64,000 bases of DNA, from positions 2,111,001-2,175,000 of the forward strand of contig NZ_CP071604.1 of assembly GCF_017357225.1 (NCBI RefSeq), written 5' to 3'. The notes beneath the pieces are model-generated. The model was given only the letters and a program-made list of their open reading frames with translations, did not search any database and was not told where the DNA came from. The stretch comes from Rhizobium binae. GTDB lineage: Bacteria; Pseudomonadota; Alphaproteobacteria; Rhizobiales; Rhizobiaceae. Positions 6,232 to 58,577 of this stretch are shown in pieces. Within the stretch, counting starts at the first letter, position 1; each line of letters opens with the position of its first letter. The translations under genes were made by a program, and so were the position numbers.

Positions 6232-6307
6232 GAGAGCGTAGCTCAGCCGGTAGAGCAACTGACTTTTAATCAGTAGGTCTCGGGTTCGAACCCCGACGCT
6301 CTCACCA
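6232..6307 (+). tRNA. tRNA-Lys(UUU), integration target of two elements
   Basis: A 76-nt cloverleaf with acceptor stem GAGAGCG/CGCTCTC, discriminator A and encoded CCA (6305-6307). The anticodon stem ACTGA/TCAGT encloses loop CTTTTAA with anticodon TTT at 6265-6267. The T arm contains GGTTCGAAC. The part from base 6259 to the end is repeated at 47743 and (46 nt) at 58500. So this gene is the left attachment site, and its 3' half now comes from the integrated element while keeping the tRNA intact. Confidence 0.97.
6259..6307 (+). repeat. attL core (left attachment site of prophage)
   Basis: Forty-nine bases, from the anticodon stem to the CCA end of tRNA-Lys, are identical to 47743-47791. The match stops at both ends (A6258 versus C47742; A6308 versus T47792). 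The first 3 bases are absent from the third copy at 58500-58545. Integration of tyrosine-recombinase elements into the 3' half of tRNA genes commonly leaves such a direct repeat. Confidence 0.95.
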
Positions 6308-9784: not shown

Positions 9785-10243
9785 GTGAACCCAACAACGT
9801 TCATGATGCGCAATCCGATCCGCAAAGGCGAGGATCTTCGGAAGTTCATCATCCGGACGATCACCGAGAACTGCGATTCCGACCTTCCCGGGGCTCGTGA
9901 AGAAATGATCGGTGAGGCGCTCCAGTTTTACCGGGCTAGGATAGTCGAGCACGTTCAGCAGGAAGAGCAAGACCGAGCCGCTGCTGATCGTCGTCACCTG
10001 GAAGCACGACTTGCGGATCTCACCGCCAAGTATGACGCGTTGGGGGCGCAGCACGCGCGGCTCAAGTCCACCATGCCGACGTCAATCTCAATACGCGAAG
10101 CGGAGGAGGCCAGGCTAGGCGCGTTCAAGCTGGCGCGCGAGAAGGCGGCGAAGCTCATGGAAGGTCCCGATGGCCAGCCCACGCCTTGGAGTGAGGCAAT
10201 CCGGGAAAAGATCAAAGATCCGAAACCTAAGTGGACAAAATAG
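9785..10243 (+). CDS. Phage protein, unknown function
   Basis: The frame is open from 9593, but its first 64 codons are the TTCCACC repeat. The likely start is GTG 9785 after AGGAG (9770-9774), or ATG 9803. The 152-residue form is helical and charged, with a coiled-coil-like stretch AADRRHLEARLADLTAKYDALGA in the middle written here only in part as ARLADLTAKYD. No family is recognised. The position between replication and packaging modules suggests an early or regulatory role. Confidence 0.6.
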   Translation: MNPTTFMMRNPIRKGEDLRKFIIRTITENCDSDLPGAREEMIGEALQFYRARIVEHVQQEEQDRAAADRRHLEARLADLTAKYDALGAQHARLKSTMPTSISIREAEEARLGAFKLAREKAAKLMEGPDGQPTPWSEAIREKIKDPKPKWTK

Positions 10244-10254
10244 GAGGTGGAGAC

Positions 10255-11253
10255 ATGGCGACAGAAGAGACCGACGAGATTTTGGATGCTACGGGCCGGA
10301 CCGTGTTCACGGGCAAAGAGCCTCACCCGTACCGAACCAACACGCGCTTCGCCCAGGTCAACGGCCAATGGGAGCCAATATTAACAAAGAAGCCAGCCGC
10401 GACCACTTTGATAACGCGCTCACCGGAAGAGCAGGTTCGGGAGCGCAACGCCAACAGGGCTGCGGCCCAGGCGAGAGCAAACGGGGAGAGACGCCGCATG
10501 GCGAAGTTAATAAGCAAGATCGCTAAACGGCAGTCAAAGGGCGACCCCGCCACCGTGCAAAGCCGAGCAGAGGACTTCCCGCTCCTGGAGACGTTGCGTC
10601 GAGACAAGAACGAAGAAGGCATCAAACTTGTTAGACGATACCGGTTGCTGGTCGCGCTCTGTGAAGCCGAGCCGCTGAAAGGGCTGGACTATAGCAGGGC
10701 GGATGGCGGCGAGGTTGTACGCGTCAGTAAACGGCTCACGCCGGAAGCCGACGTTGATAAGGCGGGGGCTAGCGGTTGGTCCGTAATCGCTGATGGTGAG
10801 ATCAGATATTCATCGAAGATAAGGAAGAGCAAGGGCGCCCACGCTGAACCCTCGAAGCGTGTCGTCGTCGCCTCGAACGATAATGCGGCGGAAGGTAGCC
10901 GCATCAGATCGGAAAACCTCCACATCAAGGTGACTGACGAAGTTCTGGTGGCGCAGATAGATGCCAAGCCAATCCTTGCCGAACTTCGCAGATCAATCGG
11001 CCCTCTCGTGGACCCATTTGAGGACGCTGTCCTGGGCGGCAAGACTTACGAGGAGGTGGGCCTCATCAGTGGTGCATCTGCGCGATATGCCGTGGGTGTA
11101 GGGAAGTCTTTGGTTGGTACCGCTATCGCATCCCTCACCGTCACATGGAAAGAAATAGACGCTCGTGAACGGCTGTTGGAGATAGAAGCCGCAAGGCGGT
11201 TGGCGTCCCGGAATGCAGCCAACGATAACCGCGCGGTCCGCAAAGCCTCATAG
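10255..11253 (+). CDS. Phage protein, unknown function (late early-region gene)
   Basis: ATG 10255 follows an excellent ribosome binding site TAGGAGGTGG (10241-10250). The 332-residue protein is basic and probably DNA-associated. A helical C-terminal region (about 225-320) with AYEEV-like HTH character around KTYEEVGLISGASARYAVG may bind DNA. The frame is open, and the gene closes the rightward early block. It could be an antiterminator or late regulator by position, but nothing in the sequence proves this. Confidence 0.65.
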   Translation: MATEETDEILDATGRTVFTGKEPHPYRTNTRFAQVNGQWEPILTKKPAATTLITRSPEEQVRERNANRAAAQARANGERRRMAKLISKIAKRQSKGDPATVQSRAEDFPLLETLRRDKNEEGIKLVRRYRLLVALCEAEPLKGLDYSRADGGEVVRVSKRLTPEADVDKAGASGWSVIADGEIRYSSKIRKSKGAHAEPSKRVVVASNDNAAEGSRIRSENLHIKVTDEVLVAQIDAKPILAELRRSIGPLVDPFEDAVLGGKTYEEVGLISGASARYAVGVGKSLVGTAIASLTVTWKEIDARERLLEIEAARRLASRNAANDNRAVRKAS

Positions 11254-37182: not shown

Positions 37183-37758
37183 ATGGCGATGTCTGCAGCA
37201 CTCTTAAAAGAGCGGGTGAAAAGGTTCGAGGACTTCCTCAATCCGGATTGGCCGTCACTGGATGCCGACCCGGGAGAGGTGGCAGCCGCTTACGCGCGGG
37301 GTTTCGCAAAATTTGTCCTTAAACTTCGCTCTGCTGATGCACTCGATCGAGCAGGCCTCGCTGAGGAGGTTGAAAGTGCGATTCAAGACAACAATAGAGC
37401 GGCCCTGATAGGCTTGAGACTTGCTTGCCTGGATTACGGCACGAGCGCGTATAAAAACGTCTTGCGCTCGCGTCAGGTCCTCCAACAAATGCAGCAACTT
37501 ATCGATCAGCGTGCCGCTCGCATTAGCGACCCGGGCAAGCGGAGATACTTTCGCGCAAAAAGCGCTGAATCTATCAAAGCGCACGAGCAGGCGGTGGGAA
37601 TAGAAGAGGCCTTTATCTCTTATCTTCAGCAGGAGATTCAGCCGAAGATCGATAGTAAGATTCGGGAACAAGCCCGAGCCATTGCCGGTGATGAAGCGGC
37701 TATTCGGGAAGACCTAAATAAACGATATCCAATAGTCACGGCATACTTGGCTAGATGA
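37183..37758 (+). CDS. Unknown partner of Doc-type toxin (191 aa)
   Basis: ATG 37183 follows AAAAGG. The product is a helical, charged protein with long amphipathic stretches (for example RAKSAESIKAHEQAVGIEEA). Its stop overlaps the start of the Doc-like gene (ATGA), so the two are translationally coupled. Normal Phd antitoxins are about 70 residues with an AbrB/YefM-type DNA-binding domain; nothing of that kind is visible. It may be a new antitoxin class or a co-toxin. The gene looks more AT-rich than the phage late genes. Confidence 0.7.
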   Translation: MAMSAALLKERVKRFEDFLNPDWPSLDADPGEVAAAYARGFAKFVLKLRSADALDRAGLAEEVESAIQDNNRAALIGLRLACLDYGTSAYKNVLRSRQVLQQMQQLIDQRAARISDPGKRRYFRAKSAESIKAHEQAVGIEEAFISYLQQEIQPKIDSKIREQARAIAGDEAAIREDLNKRYPIVTAYLAR

Positions 37759-38144
37759 CCACGCCAATCTGGGTAGATGTCGAGAGCGTGGTTACGATCA
37801 ACGCCCAGCAGGTCTTTAGGACTGGCGAGACGCACTTTTTGCGAGACCTTGGCGCGTTGGAAAGCGCCGTGATGTCGCCAAGGAACCATTGGCTCTACGA
37901 GAGCCAAGATCTCGTGCGAGCGTTTGGCATTATGCTCTTCGCGATCGCGAAGGCGCACGCCTTCGAACAAGGCAACAAAAGAACAGCGTTTCACGCCAGC
38001 GCAGAGTTTTTAGCGAAAAATGGAGCCACCCTAATTATGCCTGATGATGAGTTCTGGGCTAGCAAGATCGAGGACGTCGTCTCAGGACGGGCACAGCTGG
38101 GAGACTTCATCAGAGTTATTAGGATTTTCATTATTCTGCCCTGA
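37755..38144 (+). CDS. Doc/Fic-domain toxin
   Basis: A 129-residue protein with the Fic active-site loop HAFEQGNKRTAF (68-79), in the Doc-type form ending NKR rather than NGR. The residue before GNKR is Gln72 instead of the usual Asp/Asn. It has the Doc-type N-terminus (TGETHFLRDLGALESAV). Doc enzymes phosphorylate elongation factor Tu and stop growth. The gene overlaps its unknown partner and probably acts as a prophage-maintenance or anti-phage module. Confidence 0.85.
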   Translation: MTTPIWVDVESVVTINAQQVFRTGETHFLRDLGALESAVMSPRNHWLYESQDLVRAFGIMLFAIAKAHAFEQGNKRTAFHASAEFLAKNGATLIMPDDEFWASKIEDVVSGRAQLGDFIRVIRIFIILP

Positions 38145-38189: not shown

Positions 38190-38987
38190 TCAGGATCTCA
38201 CCCTATACGATGAGCGTGACGGTCTGATCTCGTACATGGAGCTGCCAAACAGGTGATGCAGCATAAAGCCGCGAACCATTTCCACTGGGGTGTTGTTTGC
38301 TGGACCTATGATAATTTTTGCGATCAACTCCTGCCGTTGCTCTTCGGGTATGCTTATATCCAGGTAAGGAGCGAGGTGGGTGCCTTTGGCAACATAGTTA
38401 CATTTCTCGTAGCCGGCCTCGTGAACGATACGCCATTCACGCTCCTCTTCAAAGCCTGGGTTCTTGAAAGCGAACGCGAAATTCTTTGTTGCCTCTAACG
38501 AGATATCGGTGGGCTTTCGTTGTCGCTGCTTTTCGACGATCTGCGTAACAATACGTTCCTGCTCGCCCTCGTCATAAATCACTTTAATCGCCCGGCCTCC
38601 CATCTTAGCGAGTTGCATTAGCTTCTCACCTCGGAAACCTATGCAGAATCCGCGACCGTCATCGGCGTAGCCGCGCCATTGGCTGAGCAGATCGCATTGC
38701 TCTGACAGGCACAATCCCAGGATAGCAGCTTGATTGATGAAATCTCGCTGACTGTAATACCAGCGCGGAAGGAATTCCTGCGCGTTCTGCGCCTGGATAG
38801 CGTCCTTCAGTTTGCTGTCGTACCATTCGCCTTCCATGCTGTCATTGGACAGCCGTAGCGCCGATAGCCTGATGGTCGCGTTCGAAATGATCGCGTGGAA
38901 TGTCGCAGTGGAGCAGTAGTGATACAATATCTCAGGATTGCCATTGTATTGCTCTGGTTTTAACGGATCAGATTCAAAATCAATCAT
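38190..38987 (-). CDS. DUF2971 domain protein
   Basis: A 265-residue protein with the family's pattern: LYHYCSTATFHAIISNATIR, then RLSNDSMEGEWYDSKL, then LCLSEQCDLLSQWRGYADDG and later EEEREWRIVHE. The family is widespread as accessory cargo and its function is unknown; some members occur near defence genes. The gene is leftward, convergent with the Doc gene, and more AT-rich than the structural genes, suggesting later acquisition. Confidence 0.8.
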   Translation of the reverse strand: MIDFESDPLKPEQYNGNPEILYHYCSTATFHAIISNATIRLSALRLSNDSMEGEWYDSKLKDAIQAQNAQEFLPRWYYSQRDFINQAAILGLCLSEQCDLLSQWRGYADDGRGFCIGFRGEKLMQLAKMGGRAIKVIYDEGEQERIVTQIVEKQRQRKPTDISLEATKNFAFAFKNPGFEEEREWRIVHEAGYEKCNYVAKGTHLAPYLDISIPEEQRQELIAKIIIGPANNTPVEMVRGFMLHHLFGSSMYEIRPSRSSYRVRS

Positions 38988-47742: not shown

Positions 47743-47791
47743 CTGACTTTTAATCAGTAGGTCTCGGGTTCGAACCCCGACGCTCTCACCA
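47743..47791 (+). repeat. Central att core (prophage attR / satellite attL)
   Basis: Identical to 6259-6307 for 49 bases. It is only the 3' part of tRNA-Lys, without the 5' acceptor strand or D arm, so it is not a tRNA gene. It forms the border between two elements. Downstream it continues TAAAA, while the third copy continues TAAAC. Confidence 0.95.
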
Positions 47792-47834
47792 TAAAATCTT
47801 TAAAATCTGCTAGTTACGGGACATACTAATAATC

Positions 47835-47901
47835 CGTTAGCTGGCTTTCGGCCGGGGCTAACGCCCCGCTAACGGACGCCGTTCGGCGGCTGGAGCTAAC
47901 C
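47835..47901. repeat. Left arm repeats of satellite (GCTAACG)
   Basis: Copies are at 47857-47863 and 47868-47874 (GCTAACG), 47895-47901 (GCTAACC) and inverted at 47835-47841 (CGTTAGC). Matching copies are near the right end (58364, 58381 inverted, 58471). They are likely the arm sites of the satellite integrase and differ from the prophage arm repeats. Confidence 0.6.
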
Positions 47902-48087
47902 TAAAGCCGTTCTTCTTCCGAATCCTTTCGACAGTATCGGGTGCGGGTTCTACGAGGGGATCGTAAGCAGCCTCAAGTGGTTGGTCTGCTATTCGTGGGG
48001 CTGCCGGGTTTACCGTAGGAATCCACACTTGCAGCCGTGAATTCTGGCCATATGTCCGCATTCAATGGAGCGAAAAGTGGGTATACT

Positions 48088-48119
48088 GGGGAAAACCCGG
48101 GGGAAAACTTGGGGAAAAC
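48088..48119 (+). repeat. Three phased GGGGAAAAC repeats
   Basis: GGGGAAAAC occurs at 48088, 48100 and 48111, that is 11-12 bases apart, so all lie on one face of the helix. A regulator or bending protein could bind here. No gene lies within the surrounding 300 bases except the 48381 ORF. Confidence 0.45.
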
Positions 48120-48380
48120 CTGGGGATTGGGCCTGTCTCCCGGTGCCCACGGGTACTGCTTTAAGCCTGGATGAGCTTCAGGCTAAGCGTCAAAGGTGAC
48201 GAAACCGCTCAAACGAATCAGCGGCATACAGAAACCATCTTGGTCAACACCTGTCATGTCGCGAAATGTGCTGATTTCCTTTGGACTTTTATTTCCGGTA
48301 ATCTCAGCATGGGTTAAGCCAATCGACCGCTCGCGGAAGTGCGGCTGGCCCACTGTCCACCGGATTGAAAGGAGGCCATC

Positions 48381-48518
48381 ATGGCTGCAATCTGGAAATT
48401 CGTGGTGGCAGCGGCGCTCGTGACTGTTGGCATGCACTACGTGGCCGAGGGTTATGAGAAAATGAAGGAGGCCGTCTCGGCAAAAAACCAAGACGGACCT
48501 CACGATACGAAGAAGTAG
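48381..48518 (+). CDS. 45-residue membrane protein of the satellite
   Basis: It begins MAAIWKFVVAAALVTVGMHY with one membrane helix, followed by a charged tail ending HDTKK. AAAGGAGG lies just upstream (48368-48375), and a strong terminator follows. It is the only rightward gene in the element apart from the tiny ORF at 48623. A role in exclusion or helper interference is possible, but unproven. Confidence 0.65.
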   Translation: MAAIWKFVVAAALVTVGMHYVAEGYEKMKEAVSAKNQDGPHDTKK

Positions 48519-48531
48519 CCGTTTGCTGCGT

Positions 48532-48571
48532 GGGGAAAGGATTTGCCTCGAAGCGCCTTTCCCCTTTTCTT
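48532..48571 (+). terminator. Rho-independent terminator after 48381 gene
   Basis: GGGGAAAGG (48532-48540) pairs perfectly with CCTTTCCCC (48556-48564), followed by TTTTCTT. It lies 14 bases beyond the stop. Confidence 0.85.
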
Positions 48572-48622
48572 CGTCATTTCACTTTCCCTCACATCGGTCC
48601 CAAAGTCAAAAGGGAGTTCAAC

Positions 48623-48700
48623 ATGGAAGCAAGAACTAGGAGACCTTTTTTCTCCCGCTTTGGATATCCCAAGTTTTTGGGAGGCGCCCCACTAAGGTGA
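48623..48700 (+). CDS. Very short ORF (25 aa) with ribosome binding site
   Basis: It reads MEARTRRPFFSRFGYPKFLG to a TGA at 48698. AAAAGGGAG precedes it at good spacing. Size and composition do not allow a functional call; it could be a leader peptide. Confidence 0.3.
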   Translation: MEARTRRPFFSRFGYPKFLGGAPLR

Positions 48701-48839
48701 CGGAGTGCTTGGAAAAGTCAGCGCAAACATTCGCACGTACTCCAGTGAGGAGACCTGTCGCCACCGGCAAGCGTCTTCCCTTATTTGTGCAGAGCTCGGC
48801 CACGTGTAATTGCGGAGTGGCTTGCCCGGAGCCTCAACC

Positions 48840-49187
48840 TCAAGTAGCGGCAACGGCGGCGTCTTCCATGTGGCGGCGCTCCACCCGGCGGGCGTTGGCA
48901 TCGCTCTTATCGGCGTCGCGAACTAGGTCCATCCACGCGACGCCCAGCTCGGCCGCGAGTTGCTGGAATACCGCATGGTTCAAGACGAACTGCCTCTGCC
49001 AGCTTGCCCGCGCCAGGCCGGGGCCAACAATCCGCTCGCCGTGCATCCGGGGGAGGACCACGCCATAGACCAGCCGAAGAGCCTTCTCAGTGCGGCGCAG
49101 TGGATCGTCGGGCGTGATTCGAGGTGCGCGGTCGGGGTCCCGGTCGGCCCTTATGCCGCCTCCAGGGCGGTCCCTCTGCGGAGCCAT
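48840..49187 (-). CDS. Small satellite protein, unknown
   Basis: A 115-residue protein with a basic start and a helical C-terminal part (FVLNHAVFQQLAAELGVAWM, DADKSDANARRVERRHMED). It starts 3 bases after the stop of the scaffold-like gene, so it is its last operon partner. No family is recognised. Confidence 0.6.
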   Translation of the reverse strand: MAPQRDRPGGGIRADRDPDRAPRITPDDPLRRTEKALRLVYGVVLPRMHGERIVGPGLARASWQRQFVLNHAVFQQLAAELGVAWMDLVRDADKSDANARRVERRHMEDAAVAAT

Positions 49188-49190
49188 TGG

Positions 49191-49691
49191 TCAGTGCACG
49201 TTCTTCAAGCGGGCCACCTCAGCGGCGAAGCCCCCGGCCTCGGCGCGCTCCGGTGCGGCGTAAGCCTCGCCGTCCTCTGCGATCCAATTGATCGCTGCCA
49301 TCTCGGCTTCCTCGCGTCCGCGCCGCCCTACGATGACGACCTTGCCGTCCTTGATGCCGAACTTGTGCTGCGACATGAACAGCGCCACAGCGCCGGGCAT
49401 AAGCTCCGGCTTGACGAACTGCGCTAGCTGCTCCCGCACCTTCTCGACCACCCTCCGCCGGTTGCTCTCATCCCTCAACTGAGCGTTTTCCCGGCGCAGT
49501 TTGTCATCCTCAAGCGCCCTAGAGACGTTGGCAATCAGAGCGTCTCGCTGGGCGTGGTCAAGCGTCAGGCGGTCACCGTTCTGCTTGTAGAAGTCCCGAA
49601 GACCCTCAGGAACGCCCTCGATCGAGGTGATTTCCTCTGGCATTTCCTGGGCGCTGGTCAGCACGCCCTCAAGATCGATGTCTACCTTCAT
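49191..49691 (-). CDS. Scaffold-like protein (DUF6651-type pattern)
   Basis: A 166-residue protein with the layout of phage scaffold proteins: VPEGLRDFYKQNGDRLTLDH, then a charged coiled coil (EDDKLRRENAQLRDESNRRR) and an amphipathic C-terminal helix. The opening resembles DUF6651-type head scaffolds. A related but decayed segment lies outside the element at 59203-59270. In a satellite, such a protein could redirect capsid assembly of a helper phage. Confidence 0.65.
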   Translation of the reverse strand: MKVDIDLEGVLTSAQEMPEEITSIEGVPEGLRDFYKQNGDRLTLDHAQRDALIANVSRALEDDKLRRENAQLRDESNRRRVVEKVREQLAQFVKPELMPGAVALFMSQHKFGIKDGKVVIVGRRGREEAEMAAINWIAEDGEAYAAPERAEAGGFAAEVARLKNVH

Positions 49692-49695
49692 GGCT

Positions 49696-50421
49696 CTACT
49701 CCTGCTGTGCGATTACGGCCTTTATTGCCTGCTCGGCTGCCTGCGCGTTGGCTGCTGCCTCGGCAATTTGGACGGCTGAACCAGTGGTCGCGCTGGCAAT
49801 GTAGTTGATAAACGAGCGCCCGCTGCGCTCCGTGGCTTCAAGGGCGGCGGTGAGCCGCTTGAGCCGCGCCTCTTCCGCCGGGTGGAACGTGGTCCGGTAA
49901 CGGTGGCGGACCATGTCTTGGCGGGATTGGCTCAGGCCGACCAGCAGCGCCGGGCCACGCAGCACAGCGGCTATGATGCTCCCATCCATTTCGGCGAATG
50001 CCTTGCCGATTGCCTCATCGCGGGCCTTTTCGGGCATACTGGCAAGCCGCGCTCGGATCTCAGCCTCAAGCCCGGCGGATAGTTGATCGCGCGGGGCAGG
50101 GGGCGTGCTGGTGCGAGCGGTGATCTCCGCTACTTCTTGCTGCACCCGCGCCTTGGCTTCGTCCAGCTTCTTCGCGGTGGCCTCGGCCAGCTTTAGGGCA
50201 TTGTCCCTCAGCTTGAGCCGTGCAGCATCCGGCGACAGCAGCCGATCCTTGGCCAGCGTATCGGCGTAAGCCGCAAGCGACTCGCTATTGAGCCGAGTGG
50301 TTCGCACGGCGGTAGCGAGTGAGGCAATTGTCGCGTCGTTCTCCACCTCGCCGCTGGGCGCGCGGGCATAATGGTGTTCGACGGCGGCTTCGTGAATGTC
50401 TGGCGGTGGTCTGAGCTTCAT
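49696..50421 (-). CDS. Coiled-coil satellite protein, unknown
   Basis: The start is set at 50421 because AAGGAGA precedes it; an earlier ATG at 50493 lacks a ribosome binding site. The 241-residue helical protein contains DNALKLAEATAKKLDEAKAR and HPAEEARLKRLTAALEATER. It stands between the terminase nuclease and scaffold-like genes. Assembly or portal-linked function is possible; no family is recognised. Confidence 0.65.
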   Translation of the reverse strand: MKLRPPPDIHEAAVEHHYARAPSGEVENDATIASLATAVRTTRLNSESLAAYADTLAKDRLLSPDAARLKLRDNALKLAEATAKKLDEAKARVQQEVAEITARTSTPPAPRDQLSAGLEAEIRARLASMPEKARDEAIGKAFAEMDGSIIAAVLRGPALLVGLSQSRQDMVRHRYRTTFHPAEEARLKRLTAALEATERSGRSFINYIASATTGSAVQIAEAAANAQAAEQAIKAVIAQQE

Positions 50422-50432
50422 CGTCTTCTCCT

Positions 50433-51161
50433 TTAGACAAAACCGGAAATGGCAGCTTGGCCTCCACCTGTCCGGGGGCGGGAGGCCCACCAAAGAGCGA
50501 TGGCGATGCTGAGAATGAGGTCGTCGTGCTTGCCTTCGCGCGCGTTGAAGCTCGCGCGGCCTGCGGCGCTGACGGTGCGGCGGAAGTCCTTCAGCTCCTC
50601 GGCTAGCGCTCCAGCGTCGGTCAGCTCGGCAGCAAAACGCAGCTCGCCAACGTGTAGCCGGGCGTCCACGGTGCTGATGAGATGCGCCTTCGGCACGTGC
50701 CAGCGGCGATTCTCGGGATTGGTGATCTCATTGCCGGCGGTGATGGCGACCCGCTGCGGTCGCATGCCGGCGGACTCGAATATGTCGGAGACGGCCCGGC
50801 CCACGCCCGTTTCGTCGACGACGAGGTCGCAGCCGTTGCGCAGGGGCGGGCGGTCAAGCAGTTCGGCAACGCGTCCCACGACCTGCGGGTAGGGAGTGCC
50901 CAGCGGCACACGCTCCAGAGCACGTACATCGAATCGGGTTTCGCTGCGTTCGCGTGTTACGTTGGGCCTGACGTGATCGCCGTAGGATAAGCTCCAGTCG
51001 CCCGTAGGCGTCACCGTATGATGGATGACGGATATAGCGGTGGGGTCATTCGACTGACCAAGGTCCACCCCCATGATGAAGCGGCTGACCGGCACGACAG
51101 GTATGCGCTGCCACGGTCCTCTGGCGCCCCGGCCTATCGGAGGGCTGGAGTGTGCTACCAT
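50433..51161 (-). CDS. Terminase large subunit, nuclease part (separate ORF)
   Basis: A 242-residue RNase H-fold protein with the terminase nuclease acidic residues D33 (IMGVDLGQSND), D116 (LVVDETGVG) and D213/D214 (KHDDLILSIAIALWW). Its ATG lies in an ATGGTAG overlap with the stop of the upstream ATPase gene. It would cut DNA during packaging. A terminase made of two ORFs is unusual, since tailed phages normally fuse them. Confidence 0.82.
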   Translation of the reverse strand: MVAHSSPPIGRGARGPWQRIPVVPVSRFIMGVDLGQSNDPTAISVIHHTVTPTGDWSLSYGDHVRPNVTRERSETRFDVRALERVPLGTPYPQVVGRVAELLDRPPLRNGCDLVVDETGVGRAVSDIFESAGMRPQRVAITAGNEITNPENRRWHVPKAHLISTVDARLHVGELRFAAELTDAGALAEELKDFRRTVSAAGRASFNAREGKHDDLILSIAIALWWASRPRTGGGQAAISGFV

Positions 51162-51901
51162 AGTGCTCTGACCTCCTGCGTGAATGCGGCTTCGATAATG
51201 GCGAGTGGGAAGACGGCCTCCTCAGGGTCGTGGAACTCTAAGCCGTACTCCTCGCTGAACTTGATGGCACCGAGGGCTTTCAGTTCCTCGTCCAGAAACT
51301 CCTGCGTGATCCGGGGGCATTCGCTCGCTGGAACCCTCACGCGCTCCCACGATGGATCGTCGCCGACCCAAGCCTCGTAGAACCAGCCGCGCTTGCCCGC
51401 TGGCGTGGTCAGGGCAACTAGGCGAGCGTCGCGTTTGGTCGCCATCATCGGCCGTACCGCAGTCAGCAGTTCGTCTTCGACGCGCGCCGCCTCGTCCATG
51501 ACTACGAGGTCCACCCCGGCAATTCCGCGGATGGTCTTTTCGGTGCCGGGTAGCGAAAGAATACGCGCACCGTTCGATAGCTCAGTTCCCTGTTTGCTTT
51601 CGGCGGTGGGGCGCGGCGCGCCCGGCAGCCGTCCAAGGAAGCCGACGATGGTGCGGAACAACTCGTTGGACTGGCGCTGCGTGGGACTGACGACCACGAT
51701 CTGCGCTGCCGGGACGAAGAGTGCTGTCTGGATGACGAGGAAGGCCGCGACGGTGGACTTGCCTGATTGGCGGGAGCACAGCAGCAGGGAGCGCCGGGGG
51801 TTGGCGTCTAGCAAAGTTGCCTGCCATGGGTCAGGCTCTATGCCGCACTCGCGGGCCAAGGTGACGGGGCTCAGTGCGCGGGCAAGGTCGCGGGCTAGCA
51901 T
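51155..51901 (-). CDS. Terminase large subunit, ATPase part (separate ORF)
   Basis: The 248-residue form beginning at ATG 51901 is preferred; a longer start at 51982 has no support. Walker A is SRQSGKST (43-50), Walker B DLVVMDEA (131-138), then an LTTPAGKRGWFYEAW motif. This is the packaging ATPase domain only; it stops before the nuclease. The nuclease gene overlaps its end by 7 bases and is probably expressed by coupled translation. Confidence 0.85.
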   Translation of the reverse strand: MLARDLARALSPVTLARECGIEPDPWQATLLDANPRRSLLLCSRQSGKSTVAAFLVIQTALFVPAAQIVVVSPTQRQSNELFRTIVGFLGRLPGAPRPTAESKQGTELSNGARILSLPGTEKTIRGIAGVDLVVMDEAARVEDELLTAVRPMMATKRDARLVALTTPAGKRGWFYEAWVGDDPSWERVRVPASECPRITQEFLDEELKALGAIKFSEEYGLEFHDPEEAVFPLAIIEAAFTQEVRALW

Positions 51902-52088
51902 CGATGCTGTCTCCACGAATGGCGAAAAGAGGCAGACCGGCGCGCGTCGGGCAAACACAAAGGAGAAGGCCCGGAACGACACTCAGGGAAACCAGCCGGA
52001 GACCTGTGCGTCGGCGCTGCCGGTCTGCCTTCACCCAGCGCGCGGCGGGGCTGCGCTGGTACTCGGAGGGTGAGCCTGCCGAGGTTCT

Positions 52089-52688
52089 TCATGAGCCGCC
52101 AACCCCGTTGCCGGGTACAGGGCCGCTGGCGTAGGAGTGGTCGATCACCATGCCTTCGGCGAACCGCGTCTCTAGCCCCTGGAGCACCAGCGCGACGGCC
52201 TGCCGTGCATCGGGAAAGCCCCGTAGCGCCTTGACGAGCTCGGTGCGCATCTCGATGTAGACCGGGGATACGAGCACGTTATTGTTGATGGTGGTGCCGG
52301 TGTTCAGGTCGCCAAGGAGCTTGCCTGTTAACTCGAGATTCCGGTGCAGCTGGCTGGAGATGCGCGTCACTGCCGCCGTATCGCCAACCTCATCGGCGGC
52401 GTCCATCGAGGCGAAGAGCCGGTGGCGAAGCGCGACGATGTTGGACAGCAGCGACTGCGATTCCGTCTCTCGCAGCCGGTCTATGTCCATGGGTAGCTCG
52501 GGCCCGGCCAAGAGCTGCGCCCTTAACTGAGGCGGCATGTGGTTCTTCGCGTGACGGCGCAGGCTATCGGAGCCGAGCTTGTAGCGCCGGGCGAGCACTG
52601 CGAACGGTACGTTGCGGGCCAGTGCGAGGTCAATGGCTGCGCGCTCACGGTGCCTGCAGACTGAGCATTCCGGTCCTCGTTTGGCCAT
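52089..52688 (-). CDS. Terminase small subunit-like protein
   Basis: A 199-residue protein with N-terminal possible zinc ligands C8-x2-C11-x-H13, followed by an HTH-like FAVLARRYKLGSDSLRRHAK, and a long helical region (ESQSLLSNIVALRHRLFA). This is the layout of DNA-recognising small terminases and it precedes the ATPase gene. Specificity for satellite DNA would let it claim helper proheads. Confidence 0.72.
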   Translation of the reverse strand: MAKRGPECSVCRHRERAAIDLALARNVPFAVLARRYKLGSDSLRRHAKNHMPPQLRAQLLAGPELPMDIDRLRETESQSLLSNIVALRHRLFASMDAADEVGDTAAVTRISSQLHRNLELTGKLLGDLNTGTTINNNVLVSPVYIEMRTELVKALRGFPDARQAVALVLQGLETRFAEGMVIDHSYASGPVPGNGVGGS

Positions 52689-52902
52689 GGCGGCGGAACT
52701 CGCTAAAATCGACGGCGGGTTACTTTTGATTAGCTGAGCGTTAGCTGCATCAACTCTTAGTTGTATACTAGCGTGCTAAAGCTTTGATTTAAAGGGTTTT
52801 TATATGCGTTAACCTGCTAATAGATTATAAGGCGGTCGCAATCGAGGAGAGTGAAAGCGCGTAGCGCAAAGGGCGACGACGCGGGAAGGAGGGCCGAGGA
52901 AC

Positions 52903-53574
52903 TTACCTGGGGTGGTCAGTCATTCGCTCGAAATCCCTTATAAAGCGATCGCAAACATCCTTTACCTGATCAAGGTATTGCATCGAATTCGCTGAGCAAC
53001 CTATTACCGCTTCGCTCGGACTGATTTCGAGGCGAGTATACCGCTCTTTAAGCTTATCGATCGATTCATCGATAGACTTGAGCAATTGCTCATGTCGCAT
53101 GTACGTCACTTCGATCTCCGATTGGATTCGGATAAATTCAGTTCTGTCTACTAAATCCTTTAGAAACCCTAATCTTTTTATTGCTTGCTTTTTGAACTCG
53201 ACATCGGATGGGATATTATTGATCTCCCAAAGCTCACCTTTTGAGGCGATCTGATTTCTTATATTCACCGAAGTCTCAGCCGCCTTCTGTGCCAACATGT
53301 AAGTTGGTCGCGCCTGAATACCTATTGTTGTCCGATGATGTTTCTCTGCTGCCCGCACCTGCTTCGATAGGTAGATGATGGTTGGCACCGCAACAACAAC
53401 GGCAACCCACCCGCCGAGCGCCGACATCCACTCTCGCAAGCATTCATCGTCTGCGCCGTAGCACCATGTGTCACGCGAGAAGAGCGAAGCTCCCCCATAC
53501 ATCACACCAACGTACGCTCCAATGACAAGGATGGCCGTCGCCGCCCAACCCCAGCTGTCCCAATGCTTCTGCAT
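52903..53574 (-). CDS. Membrane protein with coiled coil, cargo candidate
   Basis: ATG 53574 is preferred; a longer form begins at 53631. Two membrane segments (WGWAATAILVIGAYVGVMYG and LGGWVAVVVAVPTIIYL) are followed by a long cytoplasmic helix, and two short Cys residues sit in the loop (WCYGADDECL). The gene is clearly more AT-rich than its neighbours. It lies between the TerS-like gene and the candidate origin, so it looks like an inserted cargo gene. Function unknown; antiphage or exclusion is a guess. Confidence 0.65.
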   Translation of the reverse strand: MQKHWDSWGWAATAILVIGAYVGVMYGGASLFSRDTWCYGADDECLREWMSALGGWVAVVVAVPTIIYLSKQVRAAEKHHRTTIGIQARPTYMLAQKAAETSVNIRNQIASKGELWEINNIPSDVEFKKQAIKRLGFLKDLVDRTEFIRIQSEIEVTYMRHEQLLKSIDESIDKLKERYTRLEISPSEAVIGCSANSMQYLDQVKDVCDRFIRDFERMTDHPR

Positions 53575-53631
53575 AATCCTGCCCCACAACGCCCGGATGC
53601 CGAGCGTATGTAAGAGACGGCTGACTCGCAA

Positions 53632-54049
53632 GGCTCCGTAGGAGCCCGCCTACAAGCGCAAAGCTCCCGCCGAGGGTACCCTAGAGCGCGGCTCGGCCGC
53701 GAGAGCTAGGGGTCCTGCCAGCGGTCGCGGCGCTCGTACCGCGCGGCGAGCGACGGGGCGGCCCTTACCGTGCGGTCAGCCACCGGGGGAGCCTCAAATT
53801 AAGCGCTACTTCACGCGCACGTACGTATATAGGGGCGCGGGCGTACAGTCGGTTATAACGATTATACGTATATACGCGCAGTAAAAGCGTAGGCGCAGCA
53901 GGCGCTTGCATTATTCACGCCCCCCGGACTTAACGACTATAGCCTAAACTAAAAGTGGCGCGTTCCGCGATCCCGCCACGAAAAGCGCTCGCCTACTACC
54001 AAGCGCCAATCGCCGGCAGCGCTTTTATAATCGTCCCGACGGTTATAAA
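53632..54049. other. Candidate replication origin of the satellite
   Basis: A 411-bp noncoding stretch directly 3' of the primase gene, where satellites of the SaPI type keep their origin. It has alternating AT-rich tracts (GTACGTATATA at 53821, TTATACGTATATACG at 53862) and GGTTATAA twice (53851, 54041). It ends in a 12-bp near-perfect dyad TTTATAATCGTC/GACGGTTATAAA (54024-54049, one mismatch), which overlaps the primase stop. Confidence 0.5.
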
Positions 54050-55611
54050 GGCGGCCTTGCAGTGGGTGGCAGCGGGAGCTCAACCGGCTTGTCAAGCACG
54101 CTCATCCGCACCCACTTGACGGGTATCCCCTTTGGGCGACCCTTCACGATCTTCATCGTCTGTTTATAGTTATCCTTGCCGACCGCCTTCTTAATCAGGG
54201 TGCCGATCGTCTGCGTCGTTCCGTTCTTGAAACGCGAACTGCCCGTTCGAAGGAACTTGTCAAAGTCCTCAAACCGGAAATACACGCGGTCCTCCTCCGG
54301 CAGGGGAACCGGCTTACCAAGCAGAAGCTCATCGATGCTTTCGCCTCGATGTCGGTCCATGCAGAAGCTGCGAAGCTGTTCACGCATCATGTATTCAACA
54401 GTCTCGTCCTGCGGCACCTCTTCGAACTCGGCCCGCGCGCGGGCGTCGCGAAGGCGCTCGTTCCAGTCGTTGACTTTCATGTGACGATAGACGGCACCCA
54501 GCTGGCTGGCGCAGTGCACGTTGAACGCAAAGTAGTTCATGATCTCCTTCACCGGCAGCGTTATGTCACCATACCCAGACAGCGTGAGACGCCATTCAAC
54601 GGTCTCACCACCCGTCCGGACGACTAATTTTTCAATCCTCGGATACAGATCGCCGCCATCGCCGTCGCTCGCGTCGGGTGGCTGCTGTCTCCCATCCTTG
54701 ATGCCTTTGCGTACATGGCCTACAGCTTCGCCGTACGGCAGCCGGGCGCGAGTGGCGGCCTCCATCAGAGCGTCGAAGACAACATCTTCCTCTATCCAGC
54801 CCGCGCCGATCATCTTGCCCATGTCCTTGGAGAGTCCATAGAGCAGCTTGGCTCTCCCTCCTTCTGGCGCTTCGGCTATCTCAGTCACCGATGCGGCCAG
54901 CTTCCGCGCCGCCCGGTCGGTATCTTCGCCGCTTGCTGGAACACCTTCCGGCGCGGGCGGGCGGGTCAGCGCCGCAATTGCCGTTGGTGACTGGCGCGCC
55001 TTTTCCGCCGTCTCAAGAAACTCCGCCACCGCCATCCCTAGCCCCCCGGCCTTCACGCCGTATCGGTCGGAGGTTTCGCCGCCAAAATATGGCATATTCA
55101 TCCAGTTACCGAGGCCGGTGGCCGGGGGATACGTTTCCGCGTCAGGGTGGCCGAGCCGACAGGCAAGCGCGGTCAGCGCGGCATTCATCGCGGCCTGCGG
55201 CATCCAATCGCTGGCGAACAGCCAAACGTGCCCGCCGCCACTCTTGGAGCGCGTCAGCACCAATGGCAGACCCTCGCGCCGGATTTTACTAGCAAGTTCG
55301 CCGTGATCGATGCCGCCGTCGTAGAGGTCAATATCGACCACTCCGACCCGGCTCATTCCGTCCTCGCGCAACGGACTGACGCCGAGCGGGCGGGCGCCAG
55401 CAAGATGCTTCTCCCACAGCTCTGGCGAGGAACGACCCTTTACGTCGCGAGGTCCGTTGCCAGCCTCGTCTTTCATTTCCATCTTGGAGCCGACAAGACG
55501 CAGCCGCTTGACGTCATACGTGCCGTGCCGCTGCTCAGCGCCACGGAATAGTTCGTAAAGGCGCTCCGCAGCGGAGCGCCCCTTGAGGTTGTTGTTCGGC
55601 TGGAGGGTCAT
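54043..55611 (-). CDS. TOTE-type archaeo-eukaryotic primase of the satellite
   Basis: A 522-residue protein. The primase core has D93-x-D95 in GVVDIDLYDGG, then a TRSKSGGGHVWLF block (S124, H128), as in TOTE/AEP primases. The C-terminal half (from about 310) has no recognised helicase motif. It should synthesise primers for replication of the element. Its start overlaps the 152-residue gene's stop by 4 bases. Confidence 0.85.
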   Translation of the reverse strand: MTLQPNNNLKGRSAAERLYELFRGAEQRHGTYDVKRLRLVGSKMEMKDEAGNGPRDVKGRSSPELWEKHLAGARPLGVSPLREDGMSRVGVVDIDLYDGGIDHGELASKIRREGLPLVLTRSKSGGGHVWLFASDWMPQAAMNAALTALACRLGHPDAETYPPATGLGNWMNMPYFGGETSDRYGVKAGGLGMAVAEFLETAEKARQSPTAIAALTRPPAPEGVPASGEDTDRAARKLAASVTEIAEAPEGGRAKLLYGLSKDMGKMIGAGWIEEDVVFDALMEAATRARLPYGEAVGHVRKGIKDGRQQPPDASDGDGGDLYPRIEKLVVRTGGETVEWRLTLSGYGDITLPVKEIMNYFAFNVHCASQLGAVYRHMKVNDWNERLRDARARAEFEEVPQDETVEYMMREQLRSFCMDRHRGESIDELLLGKPVPLPEEDRVYFRFEDFDKFLRTGSSRFKNGTTQTIGTLIKKAVGKDNYKQTMKIVKGRPKGIPVKWVRMSVLDKPVELPLPPTARPPL

Positions 55612-56066
55612 TCATCACCCTCTTTTGCCTGTGCCTCTAGCTGCAGAGCAGCCTCGTACCGGCCCTTGAGGTCATGGAAGTGCGCCCCTGACCAGTTGCA
55701 CCGGCAGCAGTCGTAGAGCGCGAATTTGCACCCATCGGAATAGGTGAACCGCCGCACCCGCAGCGTGTCGTCGTCGAAGGCCAGAGCGCGGCTTAGCCGG
55801 TCTTCGCTCTCCTTGTTCAGCAGGAAACCCTCACTGGCCTTTTCCTGCTTTCGGCAGGCATCCTCTAGGCAAGCTACGCACTCCTCCGTGAACTCGTCTA
55901 AATCGCGGCGCGGGCTGTTCTCCAGTATCGCCTCGATGCGCGGATCGAACAGGGCGGGGTCGGGTTTACCGGCATCGGCCGGCACGCTATTATTCGACCC
56001 GTTGCGAGTAAGGTTGTTACTGGGCGGGGCTGCAACCCCGCCCTTATCTTTTTCGTCCTCAGCCAT
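55608..56066 (-). CDS. Unknown protein coupled to primase
   Basis: ATG 56066 gives 152 residues; the longer open frame upstream covers the HTH gene. It has FTEECVACLEDACRKQEKAS and a later YDCCRCNWSGAHFHD, so five or six cysteines may bind zinc. Overlaps on both sides (with the AlpA-like gene and the primase) make it part of the replication operon. Confidence 0.65.
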   Translation of the reverse strand: MAEDEKDKGGVAAPPSNNLTRNGSNNSVPADAGKPDPALFDPRIEAILENSPRRDLDEFTEECVACLEDACRKQEKASEGFLLNKESEDRLSRALAFDDDTLRVRRFTYSDGCKFALYDCCRCNWSGAHFHDLKGRYEAALQLEAQAKEGDE

Positions 56067-56265
56067 TGGCGGCCTCCGCGACATGGACCTCGCCGCGCCG
56101 AATGAAGTTATCGAGATCGGAGCGCCGGTACATGACGCGACGACCAACGCGGCAGAAGGTTGGCCCGGTCCGGCGCCACCTCCACCAGCGCAATGTGTCA
56201 ACTGGGACGCCACCAAGATATTTCCCCGCCGCAGAGGGCGGGAGTAGTTCATTTTCACCAGCCAT
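56059..56265 (-). CDS. AlpA/excisionase-like HTH protein of the satellite
   Basis: A 68-residue protein with PPSAAGKYLGGVPVDTLRWW, then GPTFCRVGRRVMYRRSDLDN, the AlpA/MerR-like winged HTH with its wing. It matches the family of the prophage HTH gene at 6498 but is a different sequence. It probably directs excision or activates the replication operon that follows. Confidence 0.82.
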   Translation of the reverse strand: MAGENELLPPSAAGKYLGGVPVDTLRWWRWRRTGPTFCRVGRRVMYRRSDLDNFIRRGEVHVAEAANG

Positions 56266-56357
56266 TACTTTCTCCTTGCTGAGAAATACTACCGTTATTG
56301 GTAATAGGCTGGTTGTAGCCGGTCACGGCCGGCACCCCAATAAGGGGCTTTAAAAAC

Positions 56358-57005
56358 CTATTTGCGGCGCGCGATGGTCTTGGTCAGGAGAAGCCAGCGT
56401 AGTTCTGCGTTCCGCGTAAAATTGTCCTTATACTGCTCCTTTGCCTTCTTAGCCTCGTTCGCGGTCATCCCGCAGATGAGCTTAGCCACCTCGGTCGCGC
56501 GCCGGGCGATGTCAGTCTGGCTCGCCGACGACGTTTGATAGGCGTGAAGAAGCAGCCTCTTTATCTCCTTGTGCTCCTGAACAAATTCGATCTGTCTAAG
56601 AGACAGTTCTACGCTGGGCTGCGAGCGATTGGTGAATGCCCCACTTTCGAGAAGCTGCGCCACGATCTCTAGAAAGGCCTCGGTTGGGGACTGCCGCAGA
56701 GCCGCCGCCATCAGGCGACCCCTGTCCGCTGGTGAGGTGATAGCGCTGCGCACAGCGTCCAGTTCGTCGGCCCGCATGTGGTACTTCGGATCGAACATGA
56801 ACCGCTCGTACCCGTCGGAATTTTCTGCCCCGTGCCGGAGGCTCTCCGCGAGTACCCAGTCGGTTAGCGCGGCTATGCGCCGCGCGTCCTCTGCCTTCTG
56901 TTCTTCGATGACCTTTTGCTTTTCGACGTCTGTCGCGCGGCGAGGTAACTTCTCTCGTTCGGGATAGCAGACTGTTTCCCATGCCGGCGTCGTGTGATCG
57001 CTCAC
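56358..57005 (-). CDS. Unknown helical protein next to integrase
   Basis: A 215-residue protein that overlaps the integrase stop by 4 bases (ATGA). It is helical with KQKVIEEQKAEDARRIAALT and FVQEHKEIKRLLLHAYQT. No family is recognised. It could be a regulator of excision by position. Confidence 0.65.
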   Translation of the reverse strand: MSDHTTPAWETVCYPEREKLPRRATDVEKQKVIEEQKAEDARRIAALTDWVLAESLRHGAENSDGYERFMFDPKYHMRADELDAVRSAITSPADRGRLMAAALRQSPTEAFLEIVAQLLESGAFTNRSQPSVELSLRQIEFVQEHKEIKRLLLHAYQTSSASQTDIARRATEVAKLICGMTANEAKKAKEQYKDNFTRNAELRWLLLTKTIARRK

Positions 57006-58339
57006 TCTTTCTCTCCCCTGATCGACACCACCTTGCCCTTCTTTGCAGCGGCCTCCACAGTGCGCTCGCGCCGCGCCGCCGCCGACCGCGCCGCCTCGGC
57101 CAGCACCTCACGGCTGACGTGGGTGTAGCGCATAGCCGTGGCTACCGACTTGTGCCCAACGACCGCCATTCCGACTGCCATAGGCAGGTCAGAGTCCGTG
57201 TATGTCTTCGTGCTGAACCAGTGCCGGATGGTATGCGAGCTAATCCCGTAACCCCCGGTCACTTCCGCCTCCTTCATTACGCGTTTGAAGGCAGAACCCA
57301 GAACGTCCACACGCAGCGGCAGCTCCGGGTCGGTGGCCGGGCAGACCCACGGCGAGCCGACGAACCGGGGGGCAGCCTTGAGCAGCCGCTCCACTTCCGG
57401 CGTGATGGGCTTCTCCAACTGTCCGGTTTTGGTCTTGGGCCAAATTATCAGCCCGGCCTCGCGGTCAATGTAGCTCCACTGCAATTTGCACACTTCACCC
57501 GCCCGCGCCCCGAGCGCGAAGATGAGCCGGACGGCTATCGCCGTCGAAGGCTGTAGACGACCCCCCGCCGCCATCGTCTCGGTCGTCGCCAGAAGGCGGG
57601 CAACCTCGTTTTCCGTGAAGAGCCTCGTTCGCCGCTTCGTGCCCTTCAACCCAAGCTCCTTGAAGTCCAGCGGCGGCGGCAGCGCGTTGCTGTAGAGCGT
57701 GGCCTTCTTCTTGCTGCGCGACCAGTTGAGCGCGGCGCGCAGCATTCGCATAGCGCCCTCGGCTTGCGCCTTGGCCGGGGGTAGGGGCTTGGCATTCGGA
57801 CTAGGCTTCTTACTGCGACGCTGGCGCGGGCGCTTGCTGAGCCTGTCGAAGAGCGAATGAACATCTTCCATCGTCAGCGCCGCCAGCTTGATCTTGCCGA
57901 TCTCGGGCTTGAGGATCTTATTCGCTGTCCGCTCGTACTCGTCTGCCGTTTTCTCAGCCAACTGCGACTTCGCATGCTCGGCTACGAACAAGTCGAGCAT
58001 ATAGCCCACCGTAGCTGCATTGCTCTTCCTGGTGGCCTCGCGCTGCGACTCCTCCCGCTCGGCAACCGGGTCCTTCCCCCGGTGGTATTGATTGGCCATC
58101 TCGGTCGCTTGATCGAAGGCGTCGTCGGCGGTTGTCGCCTTAATGGTGGCCCACTTCGGCTTGCCGTTGGCGCGATAGACGTAGACGAACGCCTTGGCGC
58201 CGCTCGGCCGTATGCGTAGGCCGAAACCCGTTAGGCGGCTGTCCCAGATTAGGCGGGTGGTCTTTCCGTCCTCGTGGGGTTGGGCGTTCTCCAACACGGC
58301 GCGGGTGATTTTCTTTTTTGGCTCTGTCTGCTTGCTCAC
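57002..58339 (-). CDS. Tyrosine integrase of the satellite
   Basis: A 445-residue P4-type integrase with DUF4102-like N-terminus (DSRLTGFGLRIRPSGAKAF) and the catalytic residues R279 (GARAGE), H369-x-x-R372 (SHTIRHW), H396 (VGHKSV) and Y405 (MRYTHV). It is clearly different in sequence from the prophage integrase. Yet it uses the same tRNA-Lys core. It is read leftward from next to the right att site. Confidence 0.95.
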   Translation of the reverse strand: MSKQTEPKKKITRAVLENAQPHEDGKTTRLIWDSRLTGFGLRIRPSGAKAFVYVYRANGKPKWATIKATTADDAFDQATEMANQYHRGKDPVAEREESQREATRKSNAATVGYMLDLFVAEHAKSQLAEKTADEYERTANKILKPEIGKIKLAALTMEDVHSLFDRLSKRPRQRRSKKPSPNAKPLPPAKAQAEGAMRMLRAALNWSRSKKKATLYSNALPPPLDFKELGLKGTKRRTRLFTENEVARLLATTETMAAGGRLQPSTAIAVRLIFALGARAGEVCKLQWSYIDREAGLIIWPKTKTGQLEKPITPEVERLLKAAPRFVGSPWVCPATDPELPLRVDVLGSAFKRVMKEAEVTGGYGISSHTIRHWFSTKTYTDSDLPMAVGMAVVGHKSVATAMRYTHVSREVLAEAARSAAARRERTVEAAAKKGKVVSIRGEKE

Positions 58340-58363
58340 GGCTAGCCTCCGGGCTATCTTGCA

Positions 58364-58477
58364 GCTAACGCGCGCTCCGGCGTTAGCCCGCGCGCTCCAG
58401 CTCTAAACTAACGTGAGTTTTCCTGAAAAGCTAGTATTTTCAATTAAATACAAGCGTAGACCAGCTCCAGGCTAACG
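58364..58477. repeat. Right arm repeats of satellite (GCTAACG)
   Basis: GCTAACG at 58364 and 58471, inverted CGTTAGC at 58381, and a partial CTAACG at 58408. They match the copies at 47835-47901, all between integrase start and att core. Confidence 0.6.
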
Positions 58478-58499
58478 CTGCCGGCTCCCGTACCTGCCT

Positions 58500-58545
58500 A
58501 CTTTTAATCAGTAGGTCTCGGGTTCGAACCCCGACGCTCTCACCA
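58500..58545 (+). repeat. Third att core (satellite attR)
   Basis: 46 bases identical to tRNA-Lys 3' end; the base at 58499 (T) differs from G in the other copies, so the match begins 3 bases later. Downstream lies the original chromosome side of the target. Confidence 0.93.
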
Positions 58546-58577
58546 TAAACCCGCAATGATTTCAATGGTGTAATCGC

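Follow-up and report, generated by a model that had tools for sequence, protein, structure and literature searches.

The genome of Rhizobium binae (assembly GCF_017357225.1, contig NZ_CP071604.1) carries two inserts, one behind the other, at the 3' end of a tRNA-Lys gene within positions 2,111,001 to 2,175,000 of the forward strand, a stretch of 64 kb that was analysed as a whole and is called the window below. The first insert is a prophage and the second a compact 10.8-kb element with genes for integration, replication and DNA packaging and without recognised virion genes, which raises the question of what kind of element the latter is and whose particle could carry it. Given its borders, its gene content, its recurrence in other genomes and the selection acting on its genes, we consider it probable that the element belongs to a distinct rhizobial family of phage satellites, integrated here, and that it borrows the particle of another phage.

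Borders, gene content and recurrence

The single tRNA gene called by ARAGORN in the window is tRNA-Lys(TTT) at 6232-6307, and its 3' end is present in three direct copies on the plus strand. Attachment site (att) copy 1 (6259..6307) is the 3' end of the intact tRNA gene and the left border of the prophage, copy 2 (47743..47795, with the exact repeat at 47743-47791) is the boundary between the prophage and the 10.8-kb element, and copy 3 (58500..58549) is the right border of the element, which as the second interval, from copy 2 to copy 3, measures 10.75 kb core to core. The copies are identical over 49 bp (1 and 2), 50 bp (2 and 3) and 46 bp (1 and 3). Exact matches to a 35-bp att core number three in the 7.06-Mb genome and all lie at this locus, while the reversed core, used as a control, has none in the whole genome; the three direct copies noticed in the preliminary description are thus exact over 46-50 bp and without others in the genome.

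All 12 named genes of the element lie on the minus strand. Read from the right border, they begin with a tyrosine integrase (57002..58339; phrog_1), the end of which is overlapped over 4 nt (GTGA) by a gene at 56358..57005, in the position of iolg in the PICMI (phage-inducible chromosomal minimalist islands) considered below. Next come an AlpA/excisionase-type HTH_17 protein identified by domain scan (56059..56265), a small gene between alpA and the primase in the position of PICMI up1 (55608..56066), and a primase of the AEP/TOTE type (54043..55611; phrog_21866). Between the primase and a TerS candidate (52089..52688) lies, as cargo, a gene for a 242-residue protein judged by eye to be of membrane type (52903..53631), which has no tblastn match in the loci L011-L014 described below. 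The two halves of the large terminase follow, namely the ATPase half TerL_N (51155..51982; Terminase_6N, phrog_7579) and the nuclease half TerL_C (50433..51161; phrog_27743), and after them the signature protein g241, predicted to be all-helical (49696..50421), the scaffold-like g166 (49191..49691; phrog_206) and a late gene, g115, which is shortened here (48840..49187).

The PHROGs scans covered 11 of these 12 proteins, g115 being represented by its longer L011 version and very small open reading frames being left out, together with nine proteins of L011-L013, namely the L011 version of g115 and eight without a counterpart, or with a diverged one, in the window. No capsid, portal, tail or lysis family was found among these proteins. 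The Pfam and PHROGs scans therefore agree with the preliminary description of integrase, excisionase, primase, TerS-like, two-part terminase and scaffold-like genes without virion or lysis genes; an integrase and replication genes between att repeats, without a full virion set, are what satellites in general display.

A scan of genome contigs with the TerL ATPase gave five loci. The gene order int, alpA, primase, TerS, TerL_N, TerL_C, g241, g166 of the window is shared by L011 (Rhizobium phaseoli), L012 (a Rhizobium metagenome-assembled genome), L013 (Neorhizobium petrolearium) and L074, a further copy in genome G1187 of the same genus. L014 (Bradyrhizobium) has the TerS candidate, both TerL halves and, about 9 kb upstream, a weakly g241-like gene (hhalign probability 56%), and L015 an ATPase match only. 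The elements end at tRNA-Lys in L011, L012 and L014 and at tRNA-Thr in L013. Att-like copies lie on both sides in L011 and L012 and also flank g241 of G1187 and of G1210, which is probably the same strain as L011, and in these two genomes the satellite lies between its own cores, 10.2 and 10.5 kb apart. With the present genome counted in each case, g241 is found in 4 of the 148 genomes of the genus (three close, one distant) and in 6/394 of the family, the TerL nuclease half in 4/385 genomes of the class, and the TerL ATPase, at E 1e-20, in 1/397 genomes of the order, which is this one. By these homology counts the satellite family is real but sparse.

Comparison with L011 by the Nei-Gojobori method gave ratios of nonsynonymous to synonymous substitution (dN/dS) of 0.06 for int, 0.07 for TerS, 0.09 for TerL_N, 0.08 for TerL_C, 0.14 for both g241 and g166, and 0.25 for g115; the early genes gave 0.24-0.49 where computable, with dS large and alpA saturated. 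Judged by these ratios, the packaging genes are under purifying selection. The integrase is 95% identical in L011 and L074, and relative to L074 the identity is 92-96% for int, TerS and both TerL halves, as against 40% for the primase, with no match in L074 at E 0.01 for the gene after int. The early module has thus been exchanged, with int and the packaging block kept. The close relatives thus have the same compact content in several genomes and at several sites, with neither capsid nor portal genes among the proteins scanned, and this conservation without recognised virion genes indicates that the element is satellite-like and not merely a decayed phage.

The split terminase, g241 and g166

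TerL_N ends in Leu-Trp and zero or one further residue before the stop in the window, L011, L012, L013, L014 and L019, and in the same six loci the start codon of TerL_C, an ATG, falls within CTATGG in a different frame and overlaps the end of TerL_N; the junction letters were read for the window and L011-L014, and those of L019 follow from its frames. In the more distant L050 the two overlap with other flanking letters. No slippery heptamer was seen by eye at the junction, which makes two chains produced by stop-start coupling the simpler reading. The ATPase half displays by eye what we take to be Walker-type and coupling motifs, and in the nuclease half DLGQS, DETGVGR and HDDL are invariant or nearly so in a 20-row alignment (A1). 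A search with the nuclease half, restricted to lengths near that of the query and thus blind to fused proteins, gave 1504 proteins, and the best 120 of the 1504 are all of 170-277 residues. The closest ATPases in 50,697 phage records are those of the Thermus/Meiothermus phages MMP7, MMP17 and Riverbug (45-47% identity), but MMP17 and Riverbug, which have head and sheath genes and thus are phages, carry a one-chain TerL, of 415 and 417 residues respectively. In MMP7 and MMP17 the TerS candidate has a weak homologue immediately upstream of TerL. Split TerL genes also occur in IMG/VR contigs, where by eye their neighbours resemble a tape measure in L001 and L023 and a portal in L022, and hence are not confined to satellites.

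Two further loci show unusual forms of this terminase. In L051 (2186-4238) a single TerL ATPase half precedes two tandem nuclease-half genes, of which, by eye, the first lacks the usual DLGQ and the second retains it. In L049 (genome G035, 10031-10808), near tRNA-Pro, the split terminase survives as a remnant in which the ATPase half is reduced to its last part and the nuclease half contains a stop.

The protein g241 is all-helical by structure prediction (pLDDT, the predicted local distance difference test score, 88.6). It has no tblastn match in the 50,697 phage records, and none of 42 pattern matches in IMG/VR was confirmed by tblastn. The more distant elements with g241 carry other terminases, or none identified. 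In L048 a TerS (phrog_309, 9e-13), placed as is the TerS candidate of the window, and a one-chain TerL (phrog_2, 1e-25) directly precede the g241-like gene (profile E 2e-11); L044 and L045 have a primase and g241, with no TerL identified among seven of their proteins scanned; L046 has a remote TerL_N match only, and L047 is fragment-like. The fetched stretches of these elements (L044-L048) include tRNA genes. Beside a g241-like protein in L019 (hhalign E 5e-5, probability 67%) lies a clear phrog_206 scaffold (3.7e-24), with whose N-terminus that of g166 aligns over 28 columns (hhalign E 2.8e-4, probability 41%); in phage PMBT14 the scaffold gene lies between those for head morphogenesis and the major head protein. 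L019, L054 and L055 belong to one 46.6-kb IMG/VR record with three integrases (two of them by eye), which probably represents stacked elements rather than one phage, so that L019 is no clean example.

From these observations we give an even chance to the view that the element represents a hitherto undescribed satellite lineage with its own complete two-chain motor and a scaffold or size-control pair (g166 and g241) imposed on a foreign procapsid and portal, in which the motor module (with a TerL that is split, in one chain or not identified) was exchangeable around a constant g241. In the more general reading of the element as an integrated satellite, which we hold probable, a helper phage would trigger AlpA, and Int, AlpA and the int-overlapping protein would excise the element from the tRNA gene, whereupon the primase would start its replication. 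The TerS candidate and the two-chain TerL would then load the DNA, by way of the portal, into a procapsid made by the helper and probably shaped by g166 and g241, and helper tails would finish the particle, with lysis likewise provided by the helper.

Comparison with known satellites

The families named in the literature consulted are the P4-like satellites, PICI, cf-PICI (capsid-forming PICI), PLE, PICMI, the marine VEIME and tycheposons, and the Streptomyces satellites (PMC10690885, PMC10803314, PMC11389934). The PICMI, satellites of the Vibrionaceae, have the order int, iolg overlapping int by 1, 4 or 13 nt, alpA, up1 and prim, and their excision requires alpA, int and iolg, with prim needed for full copy number (PMC10803314). 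The element resembles them in its order of int, int-overlapping gene, alpA, small gene and primase, a likeness of layout that leaves homology to iolg aside, and in its few genes and a variable slot near one end (PMC10803314). The overlap with int is of 4 nt in the window, L011, L013 and L048 and of 1 nt in L012 (5/5 elements), and by open reading frame coordinates it is also of 4 nt in L074 and for the integrase L058 upstream of L014. Primase domains of the PICMI model occur in two distant g241 elements (DUF5906 in L048 and DUF3987 in L078), whereas the primase of the element has an AEP-TOTE domain. PICMI are described as lying beside fis, as having neither terS nor capsid-remodelling genes and as being packaged as concatemers in full-size heads (PMC10803314), while the element lies in tRNA-Lys and has a TerS candidate, TerL, a scaffold-like gene and an AEP-type primase. 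As primase type, site and packaging genes all differ, the element is not a PICMI.

With the PICI, such as SaPI, it shares an integrase, a replication gene, a TerS-like gene, a possible capsid-size protein and cargo, but PICI are described as using the large terminase of the helper (PMC10690885), while the element encodes both TerL chains. In having its own large and small terminase it resembles the cf-PICI and the Streptomyces satellites MulchRoom and MiniFlayer, the latter two also in having a scaffold, but all of these encode a major capsid protein and a portal, and MulchRoom and MiniFlayer are described as lacking the primase that is present here (PMC10690885). None of the cf-PICI hallmark genes for major capsid protein, portal and protease was found among the proteins of the element that were scanned. 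The Pseudomonas pair AH14a/AH14b offers another parallel, by description and not by gene content, in that a small prophage seemingly uses the capsids of a larger resident one; AH14b differs in being 16.8 kb long and in having had its helper found by induction (PMC4936722). PLE are described with a large serine recombinase, in contrast to the tyrosine integrase of the element. P4-like satellites are defined by the Psu, Delta and Sid proteins, and none of these was listed in the Pfam and PHROGs scans, in which no dedicated P4 models were run. Psu and Sid are also named in PMC11389934.

Taken together, these comparisons suggest an apparently undescribed satellite family that stands between PICI or PICMI and the capsid-forming PICI. 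No description of a rhizobial satellite of such a make was found in the literature searched, and one may exist elsewhere. The known satellites compared here use either the large terminase of a helper or a whole head of their own, and an element with a motor and a scaffold and without a shell would fill the step between these kinds. It would also reveal the way in which a packaging motor engages a portal not its own, and it makes testable whether terminase ATPase and nuclease work as separate chains. Virus catalogues see elements of this sort poorly, as the absence of confirmed g241 matches in IMG/VR and in the phage records illustrates.

Cargo, the neighbouring prophage and the helper

The att-proximal slot of the element (47930..48853) has no convincing gene in the window; in the relatives it holds variable cargo, namely PIN_12 in L011 (6.8e-27), a HEPN_Swt1-like protein below the Pfam cut-off in L014, Abi_alpha in L045 (9e-20) and a protein with a PHROG of unknown function in L013, with no Pfam family in L012 and L074. 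The slot DNA of the window is unrelated to that of L011 and L074 and replaces the end of a 176-residue gene, so that the present copy may be partly impaired. The truncated gene is g115, of 115 residues here as against 176 in L011 and L074, with no tblastn match in L012 and L013.

Several points weigh against a satellite of the kind proposed, the shortening of g115 among them. An in-frame stop interrupts TerL_C of L012, no fold match was found for g241, and PADLOC recognised none of the cargo of L011-L013. The TerS label rests on position and denotes a candidate, and the gene annotated as TerS in Riverbug is another one, downstream of TerL. The assignment of g166 as a scaffold is weak: the scaffold-like label of the preliminary description has behind it a weak direct score to phrog_206 (E 0.0011) and weak evidence from context, and hhalign found no homology between g166 and the genes that follow g241 in L044 and L045. 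The layout is likewise not constant, as int lies elsewhere and without the int-overlapping arrangement in L044 and L045, and no alpA match was seen in L048.

The defence-type domains in three relatives (PIN, the sub-threshold HEPN and Abi_alpha), together with the conservation of packaging genes in the absence of recognised virion genes, would also suit a domesticated anti-phage island, in which the terminase, g241 and the scaffold-like protein serve as decoys to disrupt the assembly of virions by incoming phages and which hardly transfers itself. The conserved integrase, the att copies, the use of different tRNAs and the exchanged early modules point instead to continued transfer, which makes such an island unlikely, and since known satellites combine defence with transfer the two readings overlap.

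If the element is a satellite, the prophage beside it is the obvious candidate for a helper, given their adjacency on the same att site, and it was proposed as such in the preliminary description. Phage families were matched by 10/10 of the proteins of the first interval picked for scanning (TerS, TerL, portal, protease, major head protein, tape measure, tail completion/Neck1, endolysin, integrase and primase/polymerase), which bears out its identification as a siphoprophage. The two integrases, described as unrelated, are both tyrosine recombinases of phrog_1 and proved to be homologous (26% identity over 440 columns, E 1e-25). The prophage head is HK97-like with a protease, whereas the element carries a phrog_206-like scaffold, and the major head protein gene is absent from all four other carrier genomes (L011-L014, E<=0.001). 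In the genus it is present in 12/148 genomes (E<=1e-60) and the close satellite in 3/148, the two coinciding in this genome only, with 0.24 such genomes expected by chance; these counts are too few to test an association, and the co-occurrence proves nothing either way. In G1193 and G1260 a pair of att cores spaced by about 40 kb encloses the prophage relative, and since the satellites of G1187 and G1210 lie between cores of their own, each of the two elements elsewhere uses the site without the other. The DNA common to prophage and element is confined to att, the best other match having E 0.11. With the site also taken by other inserts, it is quite improbable that the element is a satellite of exactly this neighbour; of the preliminary interpretation the satellite-like nature is retained, and the neighbouring prophage as its helper is not. 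The two appear to be neighbours because both use the same tRNA-Lys end.

Such a satellite would probably depend on a phage whose head is built on a scaffold, rather than on the adjacent HK97-like prophage. That the helper comes from outside, perhaps as a virulent phage like that of PICMI, is the least supported step of our inferred scheme. A search of this genome with phrog_206 found nothing, but it also missed g166 itself and is thus too weak a control to dismiss a resident helper. A second, distant HK97-like major head protein in the same genome (G000:C1:2762078-2763007, 26% identity) may mark another resident prophage.

There is very little probability that the element is a decaying prophage bereft of its head and tail genes, since the truncated gene and gene-poor end of the window copy, the stop in L012 and the phage-type terminase and scaffold genes, which would fit such decay, are set against the same compact content across several genomes and sites and purifying selection on the packaging genes.

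The tRNA-Lys end is used repeatedly in the genus, so that the stacking of two inserts on it is unsurprising, and competition of both elements for one att site, the alternative raised in the preliminary description, is plausible. The att core, with at most one mismatch, occurs in 84/148 genomes and in at least two copies in 11/148, in which the core pairs are spaced 3.2 to 63.5 kb. Not every core-bounded interval is phage-like, as an 8-kb one in L077 has no integrase among the open reading frames listed. In L076 (G023, same genus) the cores at the same tRNA-Lys are separated by 10,795 bp and enclose a different element of nearly equal size, with an integrase and an AlpA-like match and without a terminase match. 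L011 has at 641-778 a third att-like copy, imperfect with 2 mismatches in 26, beside a 23-residue g166-like stretch, possibly the trace of an earlier satellite that used this tRNA. As for the prophage itself, its gene at 38190-38987 resembles PDC-S31, a family of candidate defence genes (E 3.8e-13), and the adjoining gene at 37755-38144 is Fic/Doc-like by eye.

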